From a virus, in IMG/VR virus record IMGVR_UViG_3300017751_000018, positions 1 to 56,864 of that record: a DNA stretch of 56,864 nt. The stretch is one strand, 5' to 3'. Each line of letters opens with the position of its first letter. Positions within the stretch are counted from its first letter, which is position 1. Below, piece after piece: positions 18,110-31,231 of the stretch. The notes beneath the pieces were generated by a model. It saw only the letters and a list, made by a program, of their open reading frames with translations. It made no database searches and was not told the origin of the DNA. The translations under genes and the position numbers were made by a program.

Positions 18110-21100
18110 ATGCCACTTAATAAGTTAGAGAATTTCATCAAGAATACTGAAGGTAAAATTCTTTATGTTAACCCTAACGATCTTGATGCTACAGATAGCA
18201 TCACGAACCAGGGTAACTCATTAACGAAACCCTTCAAGACTATTCAGCGAGCATTATTAGAATCAGCACGATTCTCATATCAGACTGGATTTGATAACGA
18301 TATTACCGATAAGACAACTATTCTTTTGTTCCCAGGTGATCACTTTATTGACAATCGTCCTGGGTTTGCTATTAAAAAAGATCCTAGTGATTCAACTAGA
18401 GCTGTAGGTGTATCTCCTATTGGTGCAGAAACTTTAGGAACAACTGAATTCGCATTATCTTTAACAAGTGAATTTGACTTAACTGTAGAAAATAATCAGC
18501 TTTATAGATTCAACTCGGTCAATGGTGGTGTTATTATCCCCAGGGGCACATCTCTGGTTGGTCTTGACCTTCGTAAAACTAAGATTAGACCATTATATGT
18601 TCCCAACCCAACAGATGACGATGTTCCTAATAGCGCCATCTTTAGAATTACTGGTAACTGCTACATGTGGCAGTTCTCTCTGTTTGATGGAGTAGGTGAC
18701 CGGTTAGTATTTACCGATCATCAACAATTTACTGATGATAATAGATCTTTCCCAACATTTTCTCACCACAAACTGACATGCTTTGAGTATGCTGATGGTA
18801 AGAATGATGTCAAGGGTTACAATATCACTGACCTCAGCATGTATTATTACAAGCTGACATATGCTTTCCAAGAAGCTTCTGGTCGTGCTATTTCATACGA
18901 ATGGCCTGAAAATCAAGGCGACTTTGAAGCAGTTCGTCAAGAAAATGAAATTGTTGGTGCTCTTGGTACTGACCCTCTTGAGATTGCGAGTATTATTGCT
19001 GGTGACGGATTAAATCCTACAGCTCAGATTACTGTTACCACAGAACAAGCACATGGACTAAGTTCTGGTACTCCAATTAAAATCAGTGGAGTTAATGTAT
19101 CTCAGTATAATATTTCTACTCTTGTTCAGTCTATTGTAGACTCAACAACATTTACATATTCTCTTTCCGTCTTCCCTAATAATCTACCAGCGACACCATC
19201 TAACATTACAAGTGCTGTTGTTACCATTGAATCTGATACTGTAACTGGTGCATCTCCTTATATCTTTAACATCTCATTGCGTTCTGTTTATGGCATGAAC
19301 GGTATGCACACGGATGGTAGTAAAGCTACTGGTTTCCGTTCAATGGTTGTGGCTCAATTCACTGGGATTAGTCTACAAAAAGATGACCGTGCATTTGTTA
19401 AGTATAATCCTCAGTCAAGACTTTATGAAGGTATTACATATCTGAAAGTCTCTGGATCTCAACTGGCAGCAGAATCTTCATCTACAGATGCTACTACTGT
19501 CTATCACTTAGACTCTGGTGCAGTTTATAGGCAAGGATGGGAACAATCTCATATTAAGATCTCAGAAAACGCCGTTGTTCAAGTCGTTTCTGTTTTTGCT
19601 ATTGGTTATAATGCTCACTTTGTTGGCGAAAGTGGTGCTGACGCATCTATCACGAACTCTAACTCTAACTTCGGTCAATTTGCACTTCTAGCAGATGGAT
19701 TTAGGGATGCAGCATTCCCAAGAGATGATCAAGGATATATTACACATATCACCACACCTCAGCATGTAGATACATCAGCATCTAAAATTGATACTGTAAG
19801 TTTCTATCAGTTAGATGTAAGTAAGACAAAGAATGTTGGTCTGTCTAGTCACTTATACATTTTTGGTTTTGATCGTCAGGATGAACCACCTTTAGCACTC
19901 TCTCAAGGTTTCAGAATTGGTGCTAATAAGCAAGAGAAATTATATGTCTCCATTGGGGGTACAGAATATGATGCTGATGTTCGTATGTCGGATAATGTTC
20001 TGACTGGTGTAGCAACAGCTATTCTGGGAGATCAAACTGGTAGCAAGGAAAGTAAACTTAGTGTACCAAATACTAATTTTGCAATGACAACGGATGCCAT
20101 TGGATTGGTAACTGGTGAGAAGATCAGAATCTTTAGTGATAATGGAGATCTTTCGGAAGGTCTTCAGTTCAATAAAATTTATTATGCTATTGTAAACTCT
20201 CCCACAGAGATTAAAATTGCTACAACATTCTCTAACGCTATTAATAATGTACCACTAGAAATATATGGTGGGCAAGATCTAAGAGTTAAGAGTACAGTAT
20301 CTGATAAGCAGACTGGTGAAATTGGACATCCAATTCAGTGGGATATTAACCAAGAACAGTGGTTCTTGCATGTTGAGGATGGTAACACAATCTATCCTCA
20401 GATTCAAACTAATATCAATGTAGAAGATGGATCTGGAACTAACATTGGTTTCATCAAGAGATTTGAAGATAAAAGAAGTATTGAAGACAAATTATATAAA
20501 GTAAGATATGTTATTCCTAAGGAGGCAGGGAACTCTAGAGACCCTGTAAATGGTTTTATCATTCAAAGCTCTAGTCTCACTGGATTTGCTAAGACTGGTG
20601 ATCCTACATCCACTACAATTACCCTGGAAGATAATAACTTTAGAAGGAATCATCAGTTTATTTCTAGTGTTAGTGAGGTCGGTGGTGTTGTTACTGTTAC
20701 AACTGAACTTCCTCATCAAGTCGAAGTTGGGGATATTGTTTTCGTTGAAAATGTTCAAGATTCAAACAACACTGGTGGACTTGCCAATAAGGGATATAAT
20801 GGATTTTTTGCTGTAACTGGTTTAATTAACGCATATCAGTTCAATCATTCTAAGACTGACACCGCTGGTGTAGAGAGAAATACTGGTACTCATGTAGATA
20901 CCAGTAACACTAGGAATCTATTCTTACCTAGATTCTCAATCAACAACAATAATAAAAACTTCTCACTATATCGTAGTACCGTTGTTGAACCATATCTTAA
21001 TGGACAAGAAGACGGTGTTTACATCTTAGAACTTCTTTCTGCTGATTATGCTCCACCGCAGGAATTTACTCCCAAGAAGTACGAACAGAATGTTACTTAC

Positions 21101-23344
21101 TATTATCCACAACAAGATAGAGACAATATTCTAATCAACGCACCTGCTTCAAAATCATTTGCAAGGCGCTCACCTTTAGGTAAAGTTGATGTTAATGATT
21201 TGACAAATTCATTAACAAGAGAGACAGTTGACAAGTTCCTAAAAACATTTAATGTTGGTTACGCAGTATCTAGTGTCACCAGTATCTCTGCTGGTATTTG
21301 TACAATTACTTTTGAAAATCAGCATGATCTGAGTGGACTCAAAATTCATGAGAATTTAGTCACTGCCTCAGGATATGCTGAAACTAGCAGATATAATGTA
21401 AAGTTACTCGATGGTAGTGATTGGAACGGTGCTACAGCTACAGTCACAGTTGGTGTTGGATCTACCACTATTACTGGTCTAGAAGTATTTGCACCTGGAT
21501 CTGCATATTCTGGTGGAGAAACACTAACCATTGATACTTTCCCAGGATCTTCAATTGGTGTTCCTACAACAGGTATTACTTCTTGTATTGGTGATGTTGT
21601 AAATATCACTGGCATTGGTACAACTAGCGACGGACTATTCAGAATTACCAGCGTACCTGATAAGAATAGTATTGCTATCGCAGTAACATCTGGAGATCCT
21701 ATTGTTATTGCAGGTCAATATGCTTATAGAGTTACTCCATCCGTCTCTATTGCATCTACTCATTTTGATATTGCCACAGGATTGACCACAATCACTACAT
21801 CAGTTCCACATGGTTTGAGGAGAGGATCTAAGTTTAAAGTTGTTGATACTAGTAGCAATAAAGTTGGTGAGTTTATTGTCAATACCGTTGCAGGTATCAC
21901 TACATTTACATCTACAACAGTTAATGATATTAACTTTGCTCCTGGGCACAGATTATATAAATTTGCATTTGATGGAAACAACCAATCTGTACCTTTATCA
22001 GAAGCTATTGGAGCAAGATATACTAATTTGTATGCTGGAGAACATGCAGTAACTAAAGATGCGCTAGACAATACCACAACAACTGTAAGATTACAAGTTC
22101 CCAATTTGGGTATTGGTACTGATCTAAGATTCAAACTTGGTGATTACATTGAGATTGATGCTGAGATCATGAGAGTATCTGAGCAAGGTCTAATTGGTGG
22201 TGGTAATGATGGTCTCCGTGTTATTCGTGGTTCACTTGGTACTCTACCAGCAGAACATTATTCTGGTTCCTTGATTAGAAAGATTGATCCGTTGCCTATC
22301 GAGTTGCGTCGTCCTTCTATTCTTCGTGCATCTGGACATACATTTGTGTATCTTGGATATGGTCCAGGTAACTATTCAACCGGTCTTCCTCAAGTACAGA
22401 ACAGAACACTGACTGATGATGAGGAGTATCTATCTCAGGCACAGGAAAGAGCAGCTGGTTCAATTGTATATACCGGTCTGAATAACGAGGGTGACTTCTA
22501 CATTGGTAACAAGAGAATCTCTTCTTCTAGTGGTGAAGAATCATCCTTTGGTATTCCTATTCCTACTGTAACAGGTGAATCTGCATCTAGTAACTCCGTC
22601 GTATTTGACGAAGTTATTGTTAGACAGAGAATCATTATTGAAGGTGGTCCTCAACAGAATATCCTGTCTCAGTTTGATGGTCCAGTAACATTCTCTAATG
22701 ATGTTAACTTCACCGATGATTTAATTACAAGTGGAACTGTAGAGCTTGGTGGTGATATTGAAATTACTGGTGATTTCGCCAATGGTGCTAAGTTAAACAA
22801 TGTCTTAGTTGGTGTTGGTACTCAGAAGACTGAAATTACAACAGTTCCTGGATCTGGTGATCTTGTTCTTAATGCTGCAACTGGATTTGCTGTTGCTATT
22901 GCAACCGATACTAAGTACACTGCATCAGTAACATTTGAGAAACAGGTTAACTTCAATGGTTTCACCACATTCTCTGGTGATGTATACATGAGTGGTGCTG
23001 GATTTACATATTGTGGTGGTCCTCTCCATGTATGTGATGATATTGTTGCATTCTACGGTCAGACTTCTGACATTGCTATGAAAGAAAATGTATCCACACT
23101 TGAAGATCCTCTTGCTAAGGTTCTCCAGATCCGTGGTACTGAATATGACTGGAAGAAAGGCAACAAGAGCTATACTGGTCATGATGTTGGCGTTATCGCT
23201 CAAGATGTTGAAAAAGTTCTTCCTGAAGCAGTATCTACCAAACCTGACGGCACTAAAGGTGTCCACTATAACAAACTAATTCCTCTTCTCATTGAAGCAG
23301 TCAAAGACCTTAGTTCACAAGTCGATGACCTAAAGGATAAATAA
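18110..23344 (+). CDS. Long tail fibre/spike protein with C-terminal S74 chaperone domain
   Basis: This 1744-aa virion fibre begins with a pectate-lyase-like beta-helix start (KILYVNPNDLDATDS, SLTKPFKTIQRALLESARFS, TTILLFPGDHFIDN). A long beta-rich body includes GLSSGTPIKISGV-type and APGSAYSGGETL-type repeats. It ends in a Peptidase_S74 intramolecular chaperone (about residues 1648-1744): QTSDIAMKENVS, EYDWKK, HDVGVIAQDVEKVLPEAV, then a coiled-coil end. The catalytic Ser/Lys dyad is visible as Ser1653 and Lys1658, with the usual 5-residue spacing. Auto-cleavage before Ser1653 would release the chaperone after trimerisation. It probably contacts the host surface. Confidence 0.85.
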   Translation: MPLNKLENFIKNTEGKILYVNPNDLDATDSITNQGNSLTKPFKTIQRALLESARFSYQTGFDNDITDKTTILLFPGDHFIDNRPGFAIKKDPSDSTRAVGVSPIGAETLGTTEFALSLTSEFDLTVENNQLYRFNSVNGGVIIPRGTSLVGLDLRKTKIRPLYVPNPTDDDVPNSAIFRITGNCYMWQFSLFDGVGDRLVFTDHQQFTDDNRSFPTFSHHKLTCFEYADGKNDVKGYNITDLSMYYYKLTYAFQEASGRAISYEWPENQGDFEAVRQENEIVGALGTDPLEIASIIAGDGLNPTAQITVTTEQAHGLSSGTPIKISGVNVSQYNISTLVQSIVDSTTFTYSLSVFPNNLPATPSNITSAVVTIESDTVTGASPYIFNISLRSVYGMNGMHTDGSKATGFRSMVVAQFTGISLQKDDRAFVKYNPQSRLYEGITYLKVSGSQLAAESSSTDATTVYHLDSGAVYRQGWEQSHIKISENAVVQVVSVFAIGYNAHFVGESGADASITNSNSNFGQFALLADGFRDAAFPRDDQGYITHITTPQHVDTSASKIDTVSFYQLDVSKTKNVGLSSHLYIFGFDRQDEPPLALSQGFRIGANKQEKLYVSIGGTEYDADVRMSDNVLTGVATAILGDQTGSKESKLSVPNTNFAMTTDAIGLVTGEKIRIFSDNGDLSEGLQFNKIYYAIVNSPTEIKIATTFSNAINNVPLEIYGGQDLRVKSTVSDKQTGEIGHPIQWDINQEQWFLHVEDGNTIYPQIQTNINVEDGSGTNIGFIKRFEDKRSIEDKLYKVRYVIPKEAGNSRDPVNGFIIQSSSLTGFAKTGDPTSTTITLEDNNFRRNHQFISSVSEVGGVVTVTTELPHQVEVGDIVFVENVQDSNNTGGLANKGYNGFFAVTGLINAYQFNHSKTDTAGVERNTGTHVDTSNTRNLFLPRFSINNNNKNFSLYRSTVVEPYLNGQEDGVYILELLSADYAPPQEFTPKKYEQNVTYYYPQQDRDNILINAPASKSFARRSPLGKVDVNDLTNSLTRETVDKFLKTFNVGYAVSSVTSISAGICTITFENQHDLSGLKIHENLVTASGYAETSRYNVKLLDGSDWNGATATVTVGVGSTTITGLEVFAPGSAYSGGETLTIDTFPGSSIGVPTTGITSCIGDVVNITGIGTTSDGLFRITSVPDKNSIAIAVTSGDPIVIAGQYAYRVTPSVSIASTHFDIATGLTTITTSVPHGLRRGSKFKVVDTSSNKVGEFIVNTVAGITTFTSTTVNDINFAPGHRLYKFAFDGNNQSVPLSEAIGARYTNLYAGEHAVTKDALDNTTTTVRLQVPNLGIGTDLRFKLGDYIEIDAEIMRVSEQGLIGGGNDGLRVIRGSLGTLPAEHYSGSLIRKIDPLPIELRRPSILRASGHTFVYLGYGPGNYSTGLPQVQNRTLTDDEEYLSQAQERAAGSIVYTGLNNEGDFYIGNKRISSSSGEESSFGIPIPTVTGESASSNSVVFDEVIVRQRIIIEGGPQQNILSQFDGPVTFSNDVNFTDDLITSGTVELGGDIEITGDFANGAKLNNVLVGVGTQKTEITTVPGSGDLVLNAATGFAVAIATDTKYTASVTFEKQVNFNGFTTFSGDVYMSGAGFTYCGGPLHVCDDIVAFYGQTSDIAMKENVSTLEDPLAKVLQIRGTEYDWKKGNKSYTGHDVGVIAQDVEKVLPEAVSTKPDGTKGVHYNKLIPLLIEAVKDLSSQVDDLKDK

Positions 23345-23371: not shown

Positions 23372-26095
23372 ATGCCTAATAATTACAAGACAATTATCAA
23401 CTTCAGAGATGGCATTCAAGTTGATGCAGATGATCTAATCTCTAATAATGGTCTAGTCGGTATCGGCACGACCATTCCTAGAGAGGAACTGGACATTCGT
23501 GGAAACTTGATTGTCGAAGATCAAGCTAATTTTAGAGATGTCAATGTAATTGGATATCAGACACATTATGGCAATATCAATGTTGCTGTAGGATATTCAG
23601 TTGGAATTGGTACAACAGTACCTGAAGCAGAATTTCAGGTTGGTGTAGGAACGACAGGTGTCACAATTTCAGTTGCAGGTACTATAACAGCTGTTAAATT
23701 TGAAGGTGATGGATCTGGATTGATTAATCTTCCTACATCTGTGTGGGATAATGATAATCCTGGAGCAGGATCAACAATCTATGCGTTTAGACCTGTTGGT
23801 GTTGCGGTAACATTCCCACAGGCAGATTTTGCTGTTGGTGATCTTATTAAAGTTGATGCTACTAGTGGTGTCGGTACATTTGAAGGACTGAGTGCAAAGA
23901 ACATTACATTGACTGGTAATGCCCAGCAAGGTAACATCAACATGGTTGGTGATATTGTTGGTGTTCAAACTGTCAGTGGTAGTGGTAACATTGAACTGAC
24001 TGGTATTGGTTCATTCGTTGGTGGATTAAATATCGCATCAGGTGCCATGATTGGTACTGATCGTGGACTAACATTCACTAATGATGAGAATACTATTACT
24101 TTCATTGGAACTGTAGCCAACACAGATAGTCGTCATGGCATCAGGTTTATTGAAACAAGTGGTGCTATTCCAAGACAAGCAATTCTTTTCAACGGTGCTG
24201 TAACTGGTGTAGGCAATACTACCATTGGACAAGTTGAGTTCTGGGGACAAGATGATTTAGATCCAGATGCTGTTAAGAATAAGCCTCGTGTAGTTGTTAC
24301 TAGTGAAGGTAAGATTGGTGTTGGTAAATCTAGAGTTGATCCCGATTTTAATCTTGATGTGGTCGGCACAGGTACATTTAGCGGTTCGGTTGGTGCTGCT
24401 GGTGGATTCATTGGTGATGTTATCGGTGATATTACTGGTGTCGCAGGTCTGGCACAGGGATTAACTGGAACACCTGATATTAGCGTTGATCAGATTGATT
24501 CTCTTGGAATTAACAGCATCTATATTAGAAACACTGGCATATCTACATTTGGTGGTGAGCTCAGTGTTGGTAACTTTGTTGGTGTAGGCACTACAAGCTC
24601 TGCACTTGGTAAAGGTCTTGGTGTTAGAGGTGATGCTGATATTGATGGTGATGGTACATTTGCTGGTAATTTATCTATTGGTGGCGATCTTTCAATCGGT
24701 GGTACATTTGGTGGATCTGTAAATATTACTGATGTTACTGCTACTGAGTTAGTTGTACTTGGTATTGTTTCTGGTGCTCCCGGATCGAGTGCAATTCTTG
24801 ATGACACAACATTTACCGGTGATATTGTTCAAACTGGTGGAGACTCTGCAACATTTAAGCAAGTCAACATTGGTGGTACATGTAGAATTCTCACAGATAC
24901 TTTAATCTTTGGTGATGTATCAACAGTAGTTTCTGCATCTGGTTCAGTATTTGCTAATCTAAGTGGTATTATCACAACTAATACTGTCAATACAGATGTT
25001 ATTAACATCACCACTACTTTTAACTTTACTGGTGGTGGTATTTGCACCTTTGGAGCTGTTACATTAAATGCTACTTCTGGTCTTGTCACATGTGGCAGTC
25101 TTCAAGCTGCCGAAAGTATTGAATGCCAATTCATGGTTGCAAATGCAGGTGTTACCACAGTTGCAAACTTAGATATTACTGATGGTGCAGGAACAAACCT
25201 GCTGATTACTAGAATTGGATTCAATACTTCTATCGCAGGTATTCCTGTTGCCGAAGGAATTGCATTATTTGATAATGCCGAGATTGCCATGCTTGGTGAA
25301 GCAGGTATTGGTATTGGATCAACTTCCGGTAAGAGAGATCCTAATGTAGATTTCTATGTTGGATTAAGAAGAGAATCTGACGGTGACTTTATTGGTGGAG
25401 AATCTATCTTTGAGTCTGGTATTGGTATTGGTACTAAATTTAGTCTCAATGATAGTAATGCAGTTGAGATTTATAAAAACACAAAATTCTTTAGTAATTA
25501 CACAGGCACTGGTGGTACTGATGGTGGACCAATTAGAGTTGGATTTGATACGGCATTTCCAGACTCTACTATTGACCTAGGAGAATCTCCCGGTAGTATT
25601 ATTCTTTCTAGACAAGATGATACTAGTCCAGATGGTTCAAGACCCGGATGTCTGTGGCTTGATGTTAACTCAGGTGTCAACCAATTATTCTATGAAGATA
25701 GATTAGGCAACGCTGTTGGTGTTGCTTCAGTTGTCAATGAAACTCATAATCCTATTGCTTATCTTGAGGAACTTGGATTTATCGGCGGTATTGTTAACAA
25801 CGATGCTGATCGTGCCAATCAGATTAATAACAATGTTGACAATGTTATTCAACCTGGATCAGAGTTCGGTGTAACTGCTACTGGATTTGGTACTGCACAT
25901 ATGACCTATAACAAGGCATACAATAAGCACCAATATGCAACTCAACAGGGTTCCAGTGCAACTGATGCGAGTATCTTTAGGTCATATGTTTCGTCTGCGA
26001 CTTCAGCCCTAAATATTGAGCAGGACGCAAATGATCCGACTAAAGTATACATCACTGTTGCTGGTATTGGTTCGGTTACCTTCACACTTTCCTAG
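23372..26095 (+). CDS. Tail fibre-like structural protein with VGIGTT repeats
   Basis: This 907-aa protein starts NYKTIINFRDGIQVDADDLIS and has many copies of short blocks such as GLVGIGTTIPREELDIRGNL, SVGIGTTVPEAEFQVG and KIGVGKSRVDPDFNLDV. Each is followed by Gly/Asp/Ile-rich strands (GDVIGDITGVAG). This is the 'VGIGTxxPxxxLdV' repeat common in phage and bacterial adhesins carrying triple-helical shafts. No S74 domain is seen; the C-terminus reads ITVAGIGSVTFTLS. It sits between the S74 fibre and the glycine-rich adhesin, so it may form a shaft for the latter. Confidence 0.75.
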   Translation: MPNNYKTIINFRDGIQVDADDLISNNGLVGIGTTIPREELDIRGNLIVEDQANFRDVNVIGYQTHYGNINVAVGYSVGIGTTVPEAEFQVGVGTTGVTISVAGTITAVKFEGDGSGLINLPTSVWDNDNPGAGSTIYAFRPVGVAVTFPQADFAVGDLIKVDATSGVGTFEGLSAKNITLTGNAQQGNINMVGDIVGVQTVSGSGNIELTGIGSFVGGLNIASGAMIGTDRGLTFTNDENTITFIGTVANTDSRHGIRFIETSGAIPRQAILFNGAVTGVGNTTIGQVEFWGQDDLDPDAVKNKPRVVVTSEGKIGVGKSRVDPDFNLDVVGTGTFSGSVGAAGGFIGDVIGDITGVAGLAQGLTGTPDISVDQIDSLGINSIYIRNTGISTFGGELSVGNFVGVGTTSSALGKGLGVRGDADIDGDGTFAGNLSIGGDLSIGGTFGGSVNITDVTATELVVLGIVSGAPGSSAILDDTTFTGDIVQTGGDSATFKQVNIGGTCRILTDTLIFGDVSTVVSASGSVFANLSGIITTNTVNTDVINITTTFNFTGGGICTFGAVTLNATSGLVTCGSLQAAESIECQFMVANAGVTTVANLDITDGAGTNLLITRIGFNTSIAGIPVAEGIALFDNAEIAMLGEAGIGIGSTSGKRDPNVDFYVGLRRESDGDFIGGESIFESGIGIGTKFSLNDSNAVEIYKNTKFFSNYTGTGGTDGGPIRVGFDTAFPDSTIDLGESPGSIILSRQDDTSPDGSRPGCLWLDVNSGVNQLFYEDRLGNAVGVASVVNETHNPIAYLEELGFIGGIVNNDADRANQINNNVDNVIQPGSEFGVTATGFGTAHMTYNKAYNKHQYATQQGSSATDASIFRSYVSSATSALNIEQDANDPTKVYITVAGIGSVTFTLS

Positions 26096-26105
26096 GAATT
26101 GATAT

Positions 26106-27749
26106 ATGGCTTACGGAGATTGGAGCACAAAAACTCAACAACTCCTTACGGGTACACCTGGAACACAAATATCCTATGGTGAGATTAGGGCAGCAGTGGG
26201 TGATCCCAATGCCTCAATCTCTGCATCTGAATTACATCGAGTCACAGATCTTGATGCACCGTATGATTTCAATCAGGGAAAATATGCTACTTCTACAGGA
26301 ACACCACACTTACCTTATGTTTTAGACGCAGTTGAAAATGTAGGCGTTGGTACGACTGGAGCTATTACACCTCAAGATCTTAGAGGTATTATTGATGAGT
26401 ATGTGATTGAACAGGCACCAAACTCAGAGGAAGAGAACTTTAATGTTACTAATCTGAGTAGTCCTTCTACTCCCAGTGTTAATGCAACTTGGGGTGGTAA
26501 TCTTAATAGAAATATCTCAAAATATTTAAGATTGAAGGGTAGGGTTATTAGCACAAATGTTAGTAACCCTGCTGTTGTTGCTGATGATCCGTCATCAAAT
26601 CTCAACATCTATGTAAATAATAGTCCACCATCTTATGGCGTTTATTCTGCTGGCGGTGCATTAGGTGGTCAACCTGGCGGTGATGCTGTTCAAGTATCTA
26701 ATCCTGGAGCTCCTTCACTTCGTAAGGTATTTGTAGAGTGCGAAGGATCAGACTCTCGCATTTATGCTGGTGGTGGTGGTGGAAAAACTGGATCTAATGG
26801 ATCTGGTGGTGGTAACGGAAGTGGCGCATCTAGTGGTCAACCTGGAAGCGGTGGTAGTTCTGGCGGTAGCGGTGGAAATGGTAGCAATGGATCACCCGGT
26901 GGAAATGGGCAACCTGGATCACCTGGATCTGGTGGTCAGCAAAGGTCAACATATCAAGCAAGACAATCTTTTCAGAATAGGAGAAGTGAAAGAAATAGGA
27001 GAACTAGAAGGAAGAGATATGGTGGTTGGCCGAGGAGTAGAAGGGGACCAAAACAGGATAGGCAAGGTTATCAGAATAGGAGAACTGAAAGAAGAAGGAG
27101 AACTGAAAGAAACCGGAGGCATTGTGCTGGCGGATCTGGTGGTGCCGGTGGTGCTGGTGGTTTCGGCGGCGGTCGTGGATATGGTGGTTCTGGTGGCAGC
27201 GGTGGCAGCGGTGGTGCCGGTGGTCCAGCTGGTTACAACGGCACTGGAGGCAGTGGTGGTCAACTCGGTGTAGGAGCTCCCGGTCGCGGTTGGAACTACA
27301 AAACAGGCAATACCACTGGACAACCTGGCACTCCTGGAACACCCGGCACCCCTGGCGGTGGTGGTGGTCCTGGAACACCCGGCGGTAGCGGTGGATCTGG
27401 TCAACCTGGAACACCTGGACAGGGTGGTGGTAGTGGAAAAGGTGGTGGAAGTGGAACTCCTGCAGCTTGTGGTGCTGGACAACCAGGACAACCTGGTGGT
27501 AGCGGTTCACCTGGTCAACCTGGGACACCGGGTGGTAGAGGTGCGAACGGACAACCAGGACAACCTGGAACACCTGGAAGTGCTGGTACTCCGGGGCAAC
27601 CAGGACAACCAGGACAACCAGGAGGATCTGGAGGTACTTGGGGACAACCTGCATTTGGTGGTGCTGCTGGCGGTTCTGGCGGTCGCGCTGTTGCTGGTGA
27701 TAAGTATCAAGTTATTCCCAACGGTGGAGATATTAAAGTAATTTACTAA
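26106..27749 (+). CDS. Collagen-like / polyglycine adhesin (tail fibre tip candidate)
   Basis: This 547-aa protein has a non-repetitive N-terminal domain (1-215; DWSTKTQQLLTGTPGTQISYGEIRAAVG is typical of phage fibre-linked proteins). Gly/Ser/Asn repeats follow (about 220-278), then a 63-residue Arg-rich island (about 279-341). Next come polyglycine runs (342-385), a GWNYKT interruption, and collagen-like GQPGTPGTPG repeats (about 405-520). It closes with AVAGDKYQVIPNGGDIKVIY. Glycine-rich tips recall gp38-type adhesins of T4-like phages, where polyglycine helices present host-range loops. About twenty X-Pro-Gly triplets are visible, the consensus for collagen prolyl hydroxylation. The next gene encodes a hydroxylase of that general class. 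Confidence 0.72.
   Translation: MAYGDWSTKTQQLLTGTPGTQISYGEIRAAVGDPNASISASELHRVTDLDAPYDFNQGKYATSTGTPHLPYVLDAVENVGVGTTGAITPQDLRGIIDEYVIEQAPNSEEENFNVTNLSSPSTPSVNATWGGNLNRNISKYLRLKGRVISTNVSNPAVVADDPSSNLNIYVNNSPPSYGVYSAGGALGGQPGGDAVQVSNPGAPSLRKVFVECEGSDSRIYAGGGGGKTGSNGSGGGNGSGASSGQPGSGGSSGGSGGNGSNGSPGGNGQPGSPGSGGQQRSTYQARQSFQNRRSERNRRTRRKRYGGWPRSRRGPKQDRQGYQNRRTERRRRTERNRRHCAGGSGGAGGAGGFGGGRGYGGSGGSGGSGGAGGPAGYNGTGGSGGQLGVGAPGRGWNYKTGNTTGQPGTPGTPGTPGGGGGPGTPGGSGGSGQPGTPGQGGGSGKGGGSGTPAACGAGQPGQPGGSGSPGQPGTPGGRGANGQPGQPGTPGSAGTPGQPGQPGQPGGSGGTWGQPAFGGAAGGSGGRAVAGDKYQVIPNGGDIKVIY
26941..27124 (+). repeat. Purine-rich imperfect repeat island inside the adhesin gene
   Basis: This stretch is rich in A and G, with recurring ATAGGAGAA, GAACTGAAAGAA and AGAAGGA blocks. 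It differs sharply from the GGT/CCT codons on both sides. In the gene frame it gives many AGG/AGA arginine codons. In the +1 frame it stays open and gives ordinary GAA/GGA/ATA/AAA codons (IGELKEEGELKET), while the third frame has stops. It may be an inserted or slipped segment. Confidence 0.55.
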
Positions 27750-27756
27750 TTTTATT

Positions 27757-28359
27757 ATGTCAGTTTATCGTCTATCTCCCCCACCAAATTTTGGTATGGG
27801 AGAGATATTATATGAGTCTTGGGAAGATGGATTTACATCTGAAGAATGTGATAGGATCATTAGATATGGTGAGTCATTAAATCCTCATGACTCAGTTGTA
27901 GGGCAGGATGAAGAGTCCCACGAGGTAGAAACAAGTATTAGAAAGTCAAAGAACTCATGGATTGAGTTGAATGATGATACTGAGTGGTTCTACGACAGAT
28001 TGGGAAATATCCTTAGATGTATGAATGGTATGCATTGGAGATTTGATATTCATGGATTTCATGAACATCTACAATATACTGTTTACAATGATGATGAGTC
28101 ATTTTATCGTTGGCATGTAGATAATATGGTTCTGGGTGATATGCCACCCAGAAAGTTAAGTATGACTGTGCAGCTATCTGATCCTGATGATTATGATGGT
28201 GGTGAGTTGCAGTTACATAATGGTGTCATTCATACAGCAGCAAATGATAGAGGCATAGTTACAGTATTTCCTAGCTATGTTGTTCATCGTGTGACACCTG
28301 TCACAAGGGGCACCAGACGCTCTCTGGTAGTCTGGGCAAACGGTCCTGGGTTCAGATGA
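27757..28359 (+). CDS. 2OG-Fe(II) dioxygenase, PKHD-type prolyl hydroxylase-like
   Basis: This 200-aa enzyme has the double-stranded beta-helix signature of Fe(II)/2-oxoglutarate oxygenases. Iron ligands are His120 and Asp122 (WHVDN) and His177 (VVHRVTPV). A 2OG-binding Arg follows at 187/188 (GTRRSL). The hallmark LSDPDDYDGGELQL (about 140-153) is that of the PiuC/YbiX PKHD-type group, related to prolyl 4-hydroxylases. It starts 7 bp after the collagen-like adhesin gene and must be co-transcribed with it. Hydroxylation of the adhesin's X-Pro-Gly repeats is an attractive inference; a DNA, small-molecule or host-protein substrate is possible. Confidence 0.9.
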   Translation: MSVYRLSPPPNFGMGEILYESWEDGFTSEECDRIIRYGESLNPHDSVVGQDEESHEVETSIRKSKNSWIELNDDTEWFYDRLGNILRCMNGMHWRFDIHGFHEHLQYTVYNDDESFYRWHVDNMVLGDMPPRKLSMTVQLSDPDDYDGGELQLHNGVIHTAANDRGIVTVFPSYVVHRVTPVTRGTRRSLVVWANGPGFR

Positions 28360-28411: not shown

Positions 28412-29590
28412 ATGAAGAACACACACCTTGAGCACCTAGAAGACGAGATCCTGAACAGCGGCACCGCTGGCGGTTTCAATGTTGTCACTTTCCTCCGACA
28501 GTTCAGTGATATGTTATCTGGCAAGTCCAGTGACTTAAATATCACTACCAAGTGGGATGGTGCCCCAGCTATTATTTGTGGCACTGAACCTGTCAGTGGT
28601 CGTTTCTTTGTCGGTACTAAATCAGTATTCAACAAAGTCAATCCCAAAATTTGTTTCGATGACACTGATGTAGATCGTTTTTACAATGGTCAACTTGCAT
28701 CAAAGCTCAAAGATTGTCTAGCATATCTTCCTCAACTTAATATCTCAGGTATCGTTCAAGGTGACTTATTATTCACTGCGGAAGATAAGAGAAGCGGCAT
28801 TGTCGGTGGAAACAGAGTTATTTGTTTCACTCCTAATACTATTACTTACGCTGTTGATCGTCATTCCCGTACAGGTTCTGTCGTTCATCTTTCCAAACTT
28901 GGAATCGTATTTCATACAAAGTACAAGGGCGATACTCTGCAGACTGCGGAAGTTGTACCTCTCAAAAAAGCCCCTAAGTATCACTCTACTGAGGATGTTT
29001 TTGTTGCCAGTGCGAATTTTATTGATGCCACTGGTTCTTCTTTGTTTGATCAAGGAGATCTGTATACCTTCAATGCTCACATCAATCGCGCACAAGGTGC
29101 GCTAAAGCAATCTTCTAAGTTTCTTGACATCCTACAGGGTCAAGGTAAATCTAACCTAATGATGCACCTTCTTCTCAAAAAGTTCTTCAATCAGCGCATT
29201 CGTGCTGGTCGTGGTATTGTCAATGCCAAGACAATGGTCGCTGAGTTTGCACAATTCTACAGAGTTGCTATTCAAACTGAGAGAGGTAAGAAGAAAACTG
29301 CTGCAACTCAGAAAAAATACGAAAACATGGAGAATGATGGTCTCATGTTCATCGCCATGTATCGTCGTGAGTTGTACTTCTTGATTGCAGCGTATATTTC
29401 TATTCGTAGTGCTAAGAAAATGGTCATTGACCAACTCAACAAAGTTGGCACTATCAAGACATTTATCGGTCAAACTCCCACAAGTCCTGAGGGATATGTT
29501 GTCCACAATGACAAGTCAATGATGAAGTTTGTTGACGATGAGTTCCGTCTTGCTAACATTACGGTTGACAAGTCATGGAATTCCAAGTAG
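28412..29590 (+). CDS. Ligase-like nucleotidyltransferase-fold protein (KxDG motif)
   Basis: This 392-aa protein shows a plausible order of motifs of the ATP-dependent ligase/capping superfamily. Motif I is Lys47-Trp-Asp-Gly50 (TTKWDGAPA). A motif III-like VQGDLLF is at about 115-121. A motif IV-like PEGYVV is at 359-364, and a motif V-like lysine region MMKF is at 370-373. From memory, cyanophage homologs are catalogued as conserved proteins of unknown function. Marine T4-like phages generally lack the T4 gene 30 DNA ligase, so this could be a functional substitute; that is inference. The unusually long gap between motifs III and IV (about 240 aa) weakens the case. Confidence 0.6.
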   Translation: MKNTHLEHLEDEILNSGTAGGFNVVTFLRQFSDMLSGKSSDLNITTKWDGAPAIICGTEPVSGRFFVGTKSVFNKVNPKICFDDTDVDRFYNGQLASKLKDCLAYLPQLNISGIVQGDLLFTAEDKRSGIVGGNRVICFTPNTITYAVDRHSRTGSVVHLSKLGIVFHTKYKGDTLQTAEVVPLKKAPKYHSTEDVFVASANFIDATGSSLFDQGDLYTFNAHINRAQGALKQSSKFLDILQGQGKSNLMMHLLLKKFFNQRIRAGRGIVNAKTMVAEFAQFYRVAIQTERGKKKTAATQKKYENMENDGLMFIAMYRRELYFLIAAYISIRSAKKMVIDQLNKVGTIKTFIGQTPTSPEGYVVHNDKSMMKFVDDEFRLANITVDKSWNSK

Positions 29591-29812: not shown

Positions 29813-31231
29813 ATGAGTAGGAAAATTGCTGTTATCGGCGCAGGGGCAGATGCAGTATCGACTGTTGCTCAACTTATCTCGCGAAGAGACCAACAAGATA
29901 GTGAATATCAGGATGACGAAATTACATGGATACGGGATTGCTCGCATAAAATTGACAACTTCGGAGTGCAAGTCAATACACTTTGGCTTACTGTTATTGC
30001 TACCAACACCACAATTAGTACACTCGATTTTCATAAAAGATTTGATGCGACTCAAAAACTTGGGTTAAAGTTTATTGGGTTTGGCAATAGAATTGACAAG
30101 AACTTCTTTGTCATGTTTGATCCTACCGAGATCTCAATGCACATCGATGAGGGTAAGTTTGTTGAGTTCTATTGGGAAAATGTCCAGAATCAACACTTTA
30201 ACATCAACTTAGTTGATAAAAGAGTTGAAACTATTGGGTTCTCACAAGAAGATAAAAAAGCATACATTGATGGTGAAGAGTTTGATTTTATTGTTGATTG
30301 TGTGAGAGGTGGATTGTGGGATAAAGAGTCATATAAGGATGCATTGTATAATCCAACTGATACAAAGCTAACGGTTAATCGTAAGATTCCTGGTGATTGG
30401 GATTACACTGCATATATTGCTACTGAGCATGGATATTTGACCGGTGTTCCTACACAAGATGCACAGACATGGATTTATTCATATGATAGTGACATTACAA
30501 CTGAAGAAGAAGCAGTAGAAGATTTTAATATTCATTGTGCTGTTAAAAAGCACTGTTCTTATAAGAAAACTGAATCAGATCATAAAGTATCTGTCTATTG
30601 TATTAATAAAAATAAAATGTACGCCCGTTGTGGTCGTGCGTTAGGTATGAATGATGATCTAACTGGGTTCCGTAATTATGTTGAGACTGATTTAGGTGAA
30701 GCATTAGGAGAATTTATCTTTGGTGATGATGAAAATCCATTGAACAATATGCAGCGTCTTGAGATAGAAGATAGGTGGAGAGATGGTCAGATTGATCAAG
30801 CAGCAGTTATGGCATTTTACTTGCAGTTTGGATCAAAGTATCGTCATTCTGACTTCTGGGTTCAAAGTAGAGAGGCAGCATGTAGACTGCTAGAAGATAA
30901 AGATCTTCACTCAACTGAGCGTAGAGAAGTATATGAAAAATTAGATGATATTCCTGAGGAAGAAAACATTAGACTTGATTATTTCAGATATCAAGCAGAA
31001 GCAGATGACAAATACTTTCTGCGTCAGAGAATGACAGATGAGTCAGATGAACCATATAGAATGTTAGGTCCGTACCAAAGTTTCTGTCAAGCTGTATATG
31101 GTTTAGGTGCTCCATATGCACACAAATATCCTCTTATGTCACCATTATGGGAACCAAGTGAGAAATCTGGTGAAATTGTATTAGATTCGATGATGGATGG
31201 ACACTTTAAGAAGCGGACCAAGAAGAAGTGA
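29813..31231 (+). CDS. FAD-dependent oxidoreductase, tryptophan-halogenase-like
   Basis: This 472-aa protein starts with an FAD-binding Rossmann strand-turn (KIAVIGAGADAVSTVAQLISRR; GxGxxA rather than GxGxxG/A). It continues with features recalling flavin-dependent tryptophan halogenases, which are annotated in several cyanophages: FDFIVDCVRG (second dinucleotide-site strand), GYLTGVPTQDAQTWIYSYDSDITTEEEAVEDF, and NPLNNMQRLEIEDRWRDG. The classic WxWxIP halogenase signature is not found, so chlorination is unproven. A monooxygenase or dehydrogenase role is possible. It has its own late box. Function in infection unknown. Confidence 0.6.
   Translation: MSRKIAVIGAGADAVSTVAQLISRRDQQDSEYQDDEITWIRDCSHKIDNFGVQVNTLWLTVIATNTTISTLDFHKRFDATQKLGLKFIGFGNRIDKNFFVMFDPTEISMHIDEGKFVEFYWENVQNQHFNINLVDKRVETIGFSQEDKKAYIDGEEFDFIVDCVRGGLWDKESYKDALYNPTDTKLTVNRKIPGDWDYTAYIATEHGYLTGVPTQDAQTWIYSYDSDITTEEEAVEDFNIHCAVKKHCSYKKTESDHKVSVYCINKNKMYARCGRALGMNDDLTGFRNYVETDLGEALGEFIFGDDENPLNNMQRLEIEDRWRDGQIDQAAVMAFYLQFGSKYRHSDFWVQSREAACRLLEDKDLHSTERREVYEKLDDIPEEENIRLDYFRYQAEADDKYFLRQRMTDESDEPYRMLGPYQSFCQAVYGLGAPYAHKYPLMSPLWEPSEKSGEIVLDSMMDGHFKKRTKKK

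Follow-up and report, generated by a model that had tools for sequence, protein, structure and literature searches.

The 56,864-base virus record IMGVR_UViG_3300017751_000018 of IMG/VR, analysed here at its full length and referred to as the window, contains T4-like baseplate genes, tail-fibre genes and a transaldolase gene. An earlier note had placed it among cyanophages; in spite of the baseplate genes and the transaldolase this is not confirmed, as DNA similar to the window is absent from the 50,697 phage records searched. Two tail or fibre genes, recognised by PHROG profiles that do not single out the distal fibre subunit, precede a gene for a Gly-rich tail protein with x-Pro-Gly repeats, and this is followed after 7 bp by a 2OG-Fe(II) oxygenase gene (Table 1); the ORF coordinates, gene sizes and intergenic gap reported previously for this pair are all correct. 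Directly 3' of the oxygenase gene is one for a DUF6267 protein (28412-29590; PF19782, 6e-115), and ORFs of equal length recur there in relatives. Two to three ORFs beyond the oxygenase there is a flavin-dependent tryptophan-halogenase-like gene (29813-31231; PHROG 2928, 1e-16), near whose place ORFs of like length are found in the relatives L028, L032 and L037; a halogenase gene also adjoins a 2OG oxygenase gene in pelagiphage HTVC008M.

Table 1. Features of the tail protein and oxygenase genes and of the genes upstream.
Feature	Coordinates	Strand	Basis
Tail fibre protein upstream (context)	18110..23344	+	PHROG 529
Tail protein upstream (context)	23372..26095	+	PHROG 3269
Gly-rich x-Pro-Gly tail protein, candidate fibre-tip protein, 547 aa	26106..27749	+	ORF list; 24 IMG/VR homologues
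N-terminal non-repetitive domain, aa 1-222, kept in relatives	26106..26771	+	Homologue comparison
Gly-every-third segment 1, aa 223-277	26772..26936	+	Repeat analysis
Arg/Gln/aromatic-rich insert, aa 278-340, frameshift-like yet kept in relatives	26937..27125	+	Homologue comparison
Gly-every-third segment 2, aa 343-388, nearly pure GGx, polyglycine-like	27132..27269	+	Repeat analysis
Gly-every-third segment 3, aa 405-450 (Pro: 8 in Y, 0 in X)	27318..27455	+	Repeat analysis
Gly-every-third segment 4, aa 458-509 (Pro: 12 in Y, 0 in X)	27477..27632	+	Repeat analysis
C-terminal strand (...DKYQVIPNGGDIKVIY)	27693..27746	+	Resembles YPVxVGSGGFVxISWNxQ strand of other paired proteins
2OG-Fe(II) oxygenase, prolyl-hydroxylase-type, 200 aa	27757..28359	+	PF13640, PHROG 61, active-site alignment, fold model
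Fe ligands H120 and D122 (HVD)	28114..28122	+	Alignment of relatives
Fe ligand H177 to 2OG-binding R187	28285..28317	+	Alignment of relatives

The oxygenase matches PF13640 with 54.8 bits (cut-off 27) and is a member of PHROG 61 by profile (3e-39). A profile search against solved structures returns PiuC and PKHD enzymes first, followed by vCPH of Chlorella virus PBCV-1 (1.9e-8) and the Pseudomonas putida prolyl 4-hydroxylase PPHD, and the earlier assignment as a PKHD-type 2OG-Fe(II) oxygenase is upheld. The His-Asp-His/Arg site described for it is likewise complete, with H120, D122, H177 and R187, which make up the HxD...H facial triad and the basic 2OG-binding residue, invariant among 25 aligned relatives. 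Foldseek comparison of an AlphaFold model (pLDDT 83) with the PDB gives P. putida PPHD, PKHD enzymes and PHD2 with a HIF peptide as top matches and PBCV-1 vCPH lower in the list, and the fold as modelled finds its best match among solved structures in the prolyl hydroxylases. Collagen-type prolyl 4-hydroxylases are characterised by a Lys that binds the 2OG C5-carboxylate, a place taken here by R187; Arg at this position is of the PHD2/PiuC type, as opposed to the Lys of the collagen enzymes, and the oxygenase is therefore prolyl-hydroxylase-like without being a canonical collagen prolyl 4-hydroxylase.

The x-Pro-Gly repeats of the tail protein are present as described, but the previous count of about twenty triplets was too low, as the 547-residue protein has 27 G-x-P-G motifs. 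Its Gly-rich part contains 25 of them, compared with 9.2 +/- 2.4 (maximum 18) in 5000 shuffles in which the non-Gly residues were permuted over their own positions and Gly was held fixed. Within the segments having Gly at every third residue 24 prolines are in the Y position and one is in X, in agreement with the claim that Pro occupies the position hydroxylated in animal collagen. Pfam and PHROG profile searches yield no match for the protein as a whole, and its N-terminal domain belongs to no family known to these profiles; the term adhesin is thus not confirmed as it was stated, such a role being suggested by gene order. A double compensating frameshift was considered for the insert at 26937-27125 and rejected, as relatives keep the insert (YQxR...GGWPRSRRG...C). 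The two most distant relatives have a different sequence at its place, and for both reasons we regard the insert as real.

A profile search of PDB sequences matches the tail protein to collagens by composition and, together with the triplet periodicity and the Y-position prolines, this would fit a homotrimeric collagen triple helix forming a fibre shaft and stabilised by hydroxyproline as in animals, which is an alternative for the fold and not for the enzyme. We think such a shaft unlikely, however, because the G-x-x runs, five in number with 5-17 triplets each, are short and interrupted by turns and the insert, and because the second segment is nearly pure GGx, features in keeping with a folded polyglycine-II bundle such as gp38 of Salmonella phage S16 has (PMC6851490). 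With its short segments of like length and the turns between them, the tail protein probably folds into an intramolecular polyglycine-II bundle similar to that of gp38 rather than into a continuous triple helix; the AlphaFold model (pLDDT 35) is too poor to decide the fold. The T-even gp38 adhesins with their polyglycine sandwich (S16, PDB 6f45; PMC6851490) resemble the window protein in having Gly-rich motifs with variable loops between them and a gene that follows the fibre genes, but the window protein has no sequence match to gp38, is far richer in Pro, and is set apart by its oxygenase partner and by strict x-Pro-Gly triplets. Pfam, PHROG and PDB profile searches reveal no gp38-family homology, and S16 gp38 is absent from the PDB matches.

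Among the IMG/VR members of the tail protein's own family the pairing is invariable. The 24 IMG/VR relatives, which are 54-100% identical to the window protein over the N-terminal domain, all have the oxygenase (confirmed by profile) as the next ORF, 3-9 bp downstream, and their G-x-P-G count stays at 25-46 while the repeats themselves turn over. No cultured phage with the same pair was found, the cultured relatives of the oxygenase being about 40% identical or less, and in bacterial genomes the pair occurs on one MAG contig (Rhodobiaceae CPC66, L508) that is probably phage DNA.

The wider oxygenase family was sampled through the 80 best IMG/VR relatives of the window enzyme, picked for their likeness to it, and clustering at 80% identity divided them into 54 clusters. 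In 42 of these the oxygenase has a Gly-rich ORF no more than three genes away (17.2 under the null, p=5e-5), and in 27 it has such an ORF with at least four G-x-P-G motifs (10.1 expected, p=5e-5). The expected values are for genes drawn at random from the same loci, most of which are tail modules. By offset, x-Pro-Gly neighbours are nearly confined to positions -4 to +3 and are close to zero beyond four genes. A tree of 92 oxygenases, built by a quick method with SH-aLRT as its only support measure, places the window enzyme in a clade of 44 (SH-aLRT 97), and 23 of the 38 distinct members of this clade have a Gly-rich, x-Pro-Gly-rich ORF within four genes (null 10.3, p=5e-5). Outside the clade the enrichment of such neighbours is not significant (2/16 vs 0.9), Gly-Pro-x neighbours amount to 4/16 (vs 1.7, p=0.03), and Gly-rich neighbours low in Pro are still common (13/16 vs 6.2), so that Gly-rich segments, and not Pro, could be the common factor. 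When neighbours with at least eight triplets are counted, the clade has 19 of x-Pro-Gly and 2 of Gly-Pro-x type and the remainder 0 and 4 (Fisher p=0.001, which overstates independence because the sequences are related). By DNA pattern the clade A members L323, L328, L333 and L345, whose records may be incomplete, have neither repeat type, and L327 and L337 show the Gly-Pro-x pattern instead, as the control with the backward pattern brought out.

Gene order and spacing differ among the pairs, the two genes being adjacent, separated by one to three genes, or placed with the partner downstream, and most of the paired proteins are built to one plan, in which the repeats stand between an N-terminal strand (TFNxxGTFxxPxGVxxVxIxGxG) and a C-terminal one (YPVxVGSGGFVxISWNxQ). 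A divergent oxygenase abuts an x-Pro-Gly gene on its other side in L168, and in L130 a divergent PF13640 gene is four genes downstream of a 2299-aa virus ORF (L130:1-6900) with 373 G-x-P-G motifs and a run of 264 triplets (GISGIPGVSGTP...). These two had been taken for x-Pro-Gly proteins without a partner, a reading that was withdrawn when the PF13640 search found an oxygenase near each, narrower profiles having missed one or both.

It might be argued that the neighbourhood is incidental, a tail-module hot spot having picked up the oxygenase as an ordinary accessory gene whose product acts on a small molecule, a nucleic acid or a host protein. Cultured cyanophages do have several different 2OG oxygenases clustered by their tail genes, PHROG 61 enzymes are frequent in them with no x-Pro-Gly protein nearby (S-H38, Syn30, P-SSM7, ACG-2014a), and the solved relative P. 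putida PPHD was crystallised with EF-Tu. Against this are the immediate adjacency in all 24 relatives, the enrichment relative to random genes of the same loci, the clade specificity and the recurrence with different gene orders, and we find an incidental neighbourhood quite improbable. The outcome that the earlier note had named as counting against its reading, an oxygenase equally common where collagen repeats are lacking, is seen in part: members of the broad PHROG 61 are common without such repeats, whereas the window's clade is strongly tied to them (23/38 vs 10.3).

Phage collagen-like ORFs, sampled by the patterns (GxP)4 and (GPx)4, provide a second starting point. With a loose definition of collagen-like and the first oxygenase profile, pairing is rare and about equal for x-Pro-Gly (3/40) and Gly-Pro-x (7/132) proteins. 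In a stricter set of Gly-rich ORFs with at least eight triplets, to which PF13640 searches of whole records were added, an oxygenase is nearby for 5 of 9 x-Pro-Gly and 6 of 60 Gly-Pro-x proteins (p=0.004), a difference that we treat as supporting only because the criterion was set after a first look and the numbers are small; with the window's own family left out the x-Pro-Gly figure is 4/8 (p=0.013), and proteins with mixed repeats have an oxygenase nearby in about 3 of 24. The PF13640 search of whole records detected no such gene in four of the nine x-Pro-Gly records. A partner oxygenase for every phage collagen was considered and rejected, as most of the Gly-Pro-x and mixed ones are without it. 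A control sample of ORFs that are Gly-rich regardless of Pro has an oxygenase nearby in 11 of 64 cases, and the oxygenase family thus has a background presence beside Gly-rich tail genes.

A virus-encoded prolyl 4-hydroxylase has a precedent in PBCV-1, where it is associated with hydroxyproline (Eriksson 1999, as cited in PMC9301287). Its vCPH (PDB 5c5t) has a prolyl-hydroxylase fold and the profile match covers residues 17-171, including the R-x-S...W stretch, but PBCV-1 infects algae and the window enzyme belongs to a tailed phage, is paired in gene order with one Gly-rich tail protein, and has Arg rather than Lys at the 2OG site. The PHROG 61 oxygenases of cyanophages, with which the window enzyme groups by profile, have been noted for their likeness to human EGLN3 (PMC12774648) and are classed as auxiliary metabolic genes to which no substrate is assigned; the window's clade differs in its link to x-Pro-Gly proteins. 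According to a 2022 survey, Baltic viruses have a prolyl 4-hydroxylase gene (P4HA) as one of their more abundant accessory genes, and its use by viruses 'remains cryptic' (PMC9301287). On the side of the substrate, phage collagen-like fibre proteins such as EPclA of an Escherichia coli prophage (PMC3368898) also have G-x-x triplets in tail proteins, but they show no preference for Pro in Y, where the window protein has 24:1 and an enzyme next door; the same 2012 study reports viral collagens as having no Y-position Pro preference and bacteria and viruses as lacking the prolyl hydroxylase needed (PMC3368898). In the open-licence PMC literature, which may miss subscription papers, we found no description of such a pairing between tail protein and prolyl hydroxylase in a phage, and in the same literature no report of hydroxyproline in a phage virion. 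The window locus and its relatives break both published statements in a correlated way, and they offer a concrete candidate substrate for a viral prolyl hydroxylase.

As a genetic link, the proposed hydroxylation of the tail protein by the neighbouring enzyme is well supported at the level of sequence. The earlier reading of a hydroxyproline-modified fibre is borne out in part: the pairing, conserved and recurring in unrelated phages, the position of the prolines and the enzyme fold favour it more strongly than the one locus could, but a polyglycine-II bundle is likelier than the collagen triple helix. We consider it reasonably probable that the phage prolyl hydroxylase modifies the Y-position prolines of the adjoining tail protein and so stiffens polyproline/polyglycine-II segments at or near the fibre tip. 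Inside the infected cell the oxygenase would hydroxylate its freshly synthesised Gly-rich neighbour at the Y-position prolines of the x-Pro-Gly triplets. So modified, the triplets would give stiffness to left-handed polyproline/polyglycine-II segments, which would be packed into a bundle located at the tail-fibre tip or close to it.

Asn, Asp, His and Arg are hydroxylation targets of many 2OG oxygenases, and the window enzyme could modify the tail protein at a residue other than Pro, such as Asn, Gln or Arg, or make a handle for a decoration such as glycosylation. GN and GNPG repeats abound in paired proteins elsewhere, the window protein has its conserved Arg/Gln-rich insert, and several cyanophage oxygenases adjoin Gly-rich proteins low in Pro. 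However, the Y-position Pro before Gly is the residue common to the paired clade while the one preceding it varies (Q, T, S or N), and prolyl hydroxylases give the closest matches in fold and profile, so we regard a non-Pro target as unlikely and favour hydroxylation of proline. If this is true, phages would have in post-translational hydroxylation a way of stabilising their fibres. More tentatively, and with slightly less than even confidence, we suggest that tailed phages own a prolyl-hydroxylation system for virion proteins, in which the window's clade of PHROG 61 and x-Pro-Gly tail proteins of the polyglycine-II type would have evolved together, with Gly-rich proteins of the Gly-Pro-x or low-Pro kind as possible substrates of other clades, and that hydroxyproline fibres may be widespread in water and elsewhere.

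Two further arrangements were observed near 2OG oxygenases. In S-CAM8 and S-SSM5 (L062:6337-7947; L500:6294-7958) an antisense carbamoyltransferase gene is located between a gene for a Gly-rich protein with five G-x-P-G motifs and the oxygenase gene. Giant phage proteins made of Ser/Thr-rich (GTSGSS)n or (SGYSGFSG)n triplets (L376:10838-20523; L349:469-7392) have up to about 638 uninterrupted G-x-x triplets with almost no Pro, and a 2OG oxygenase is encoded at most four genes away.
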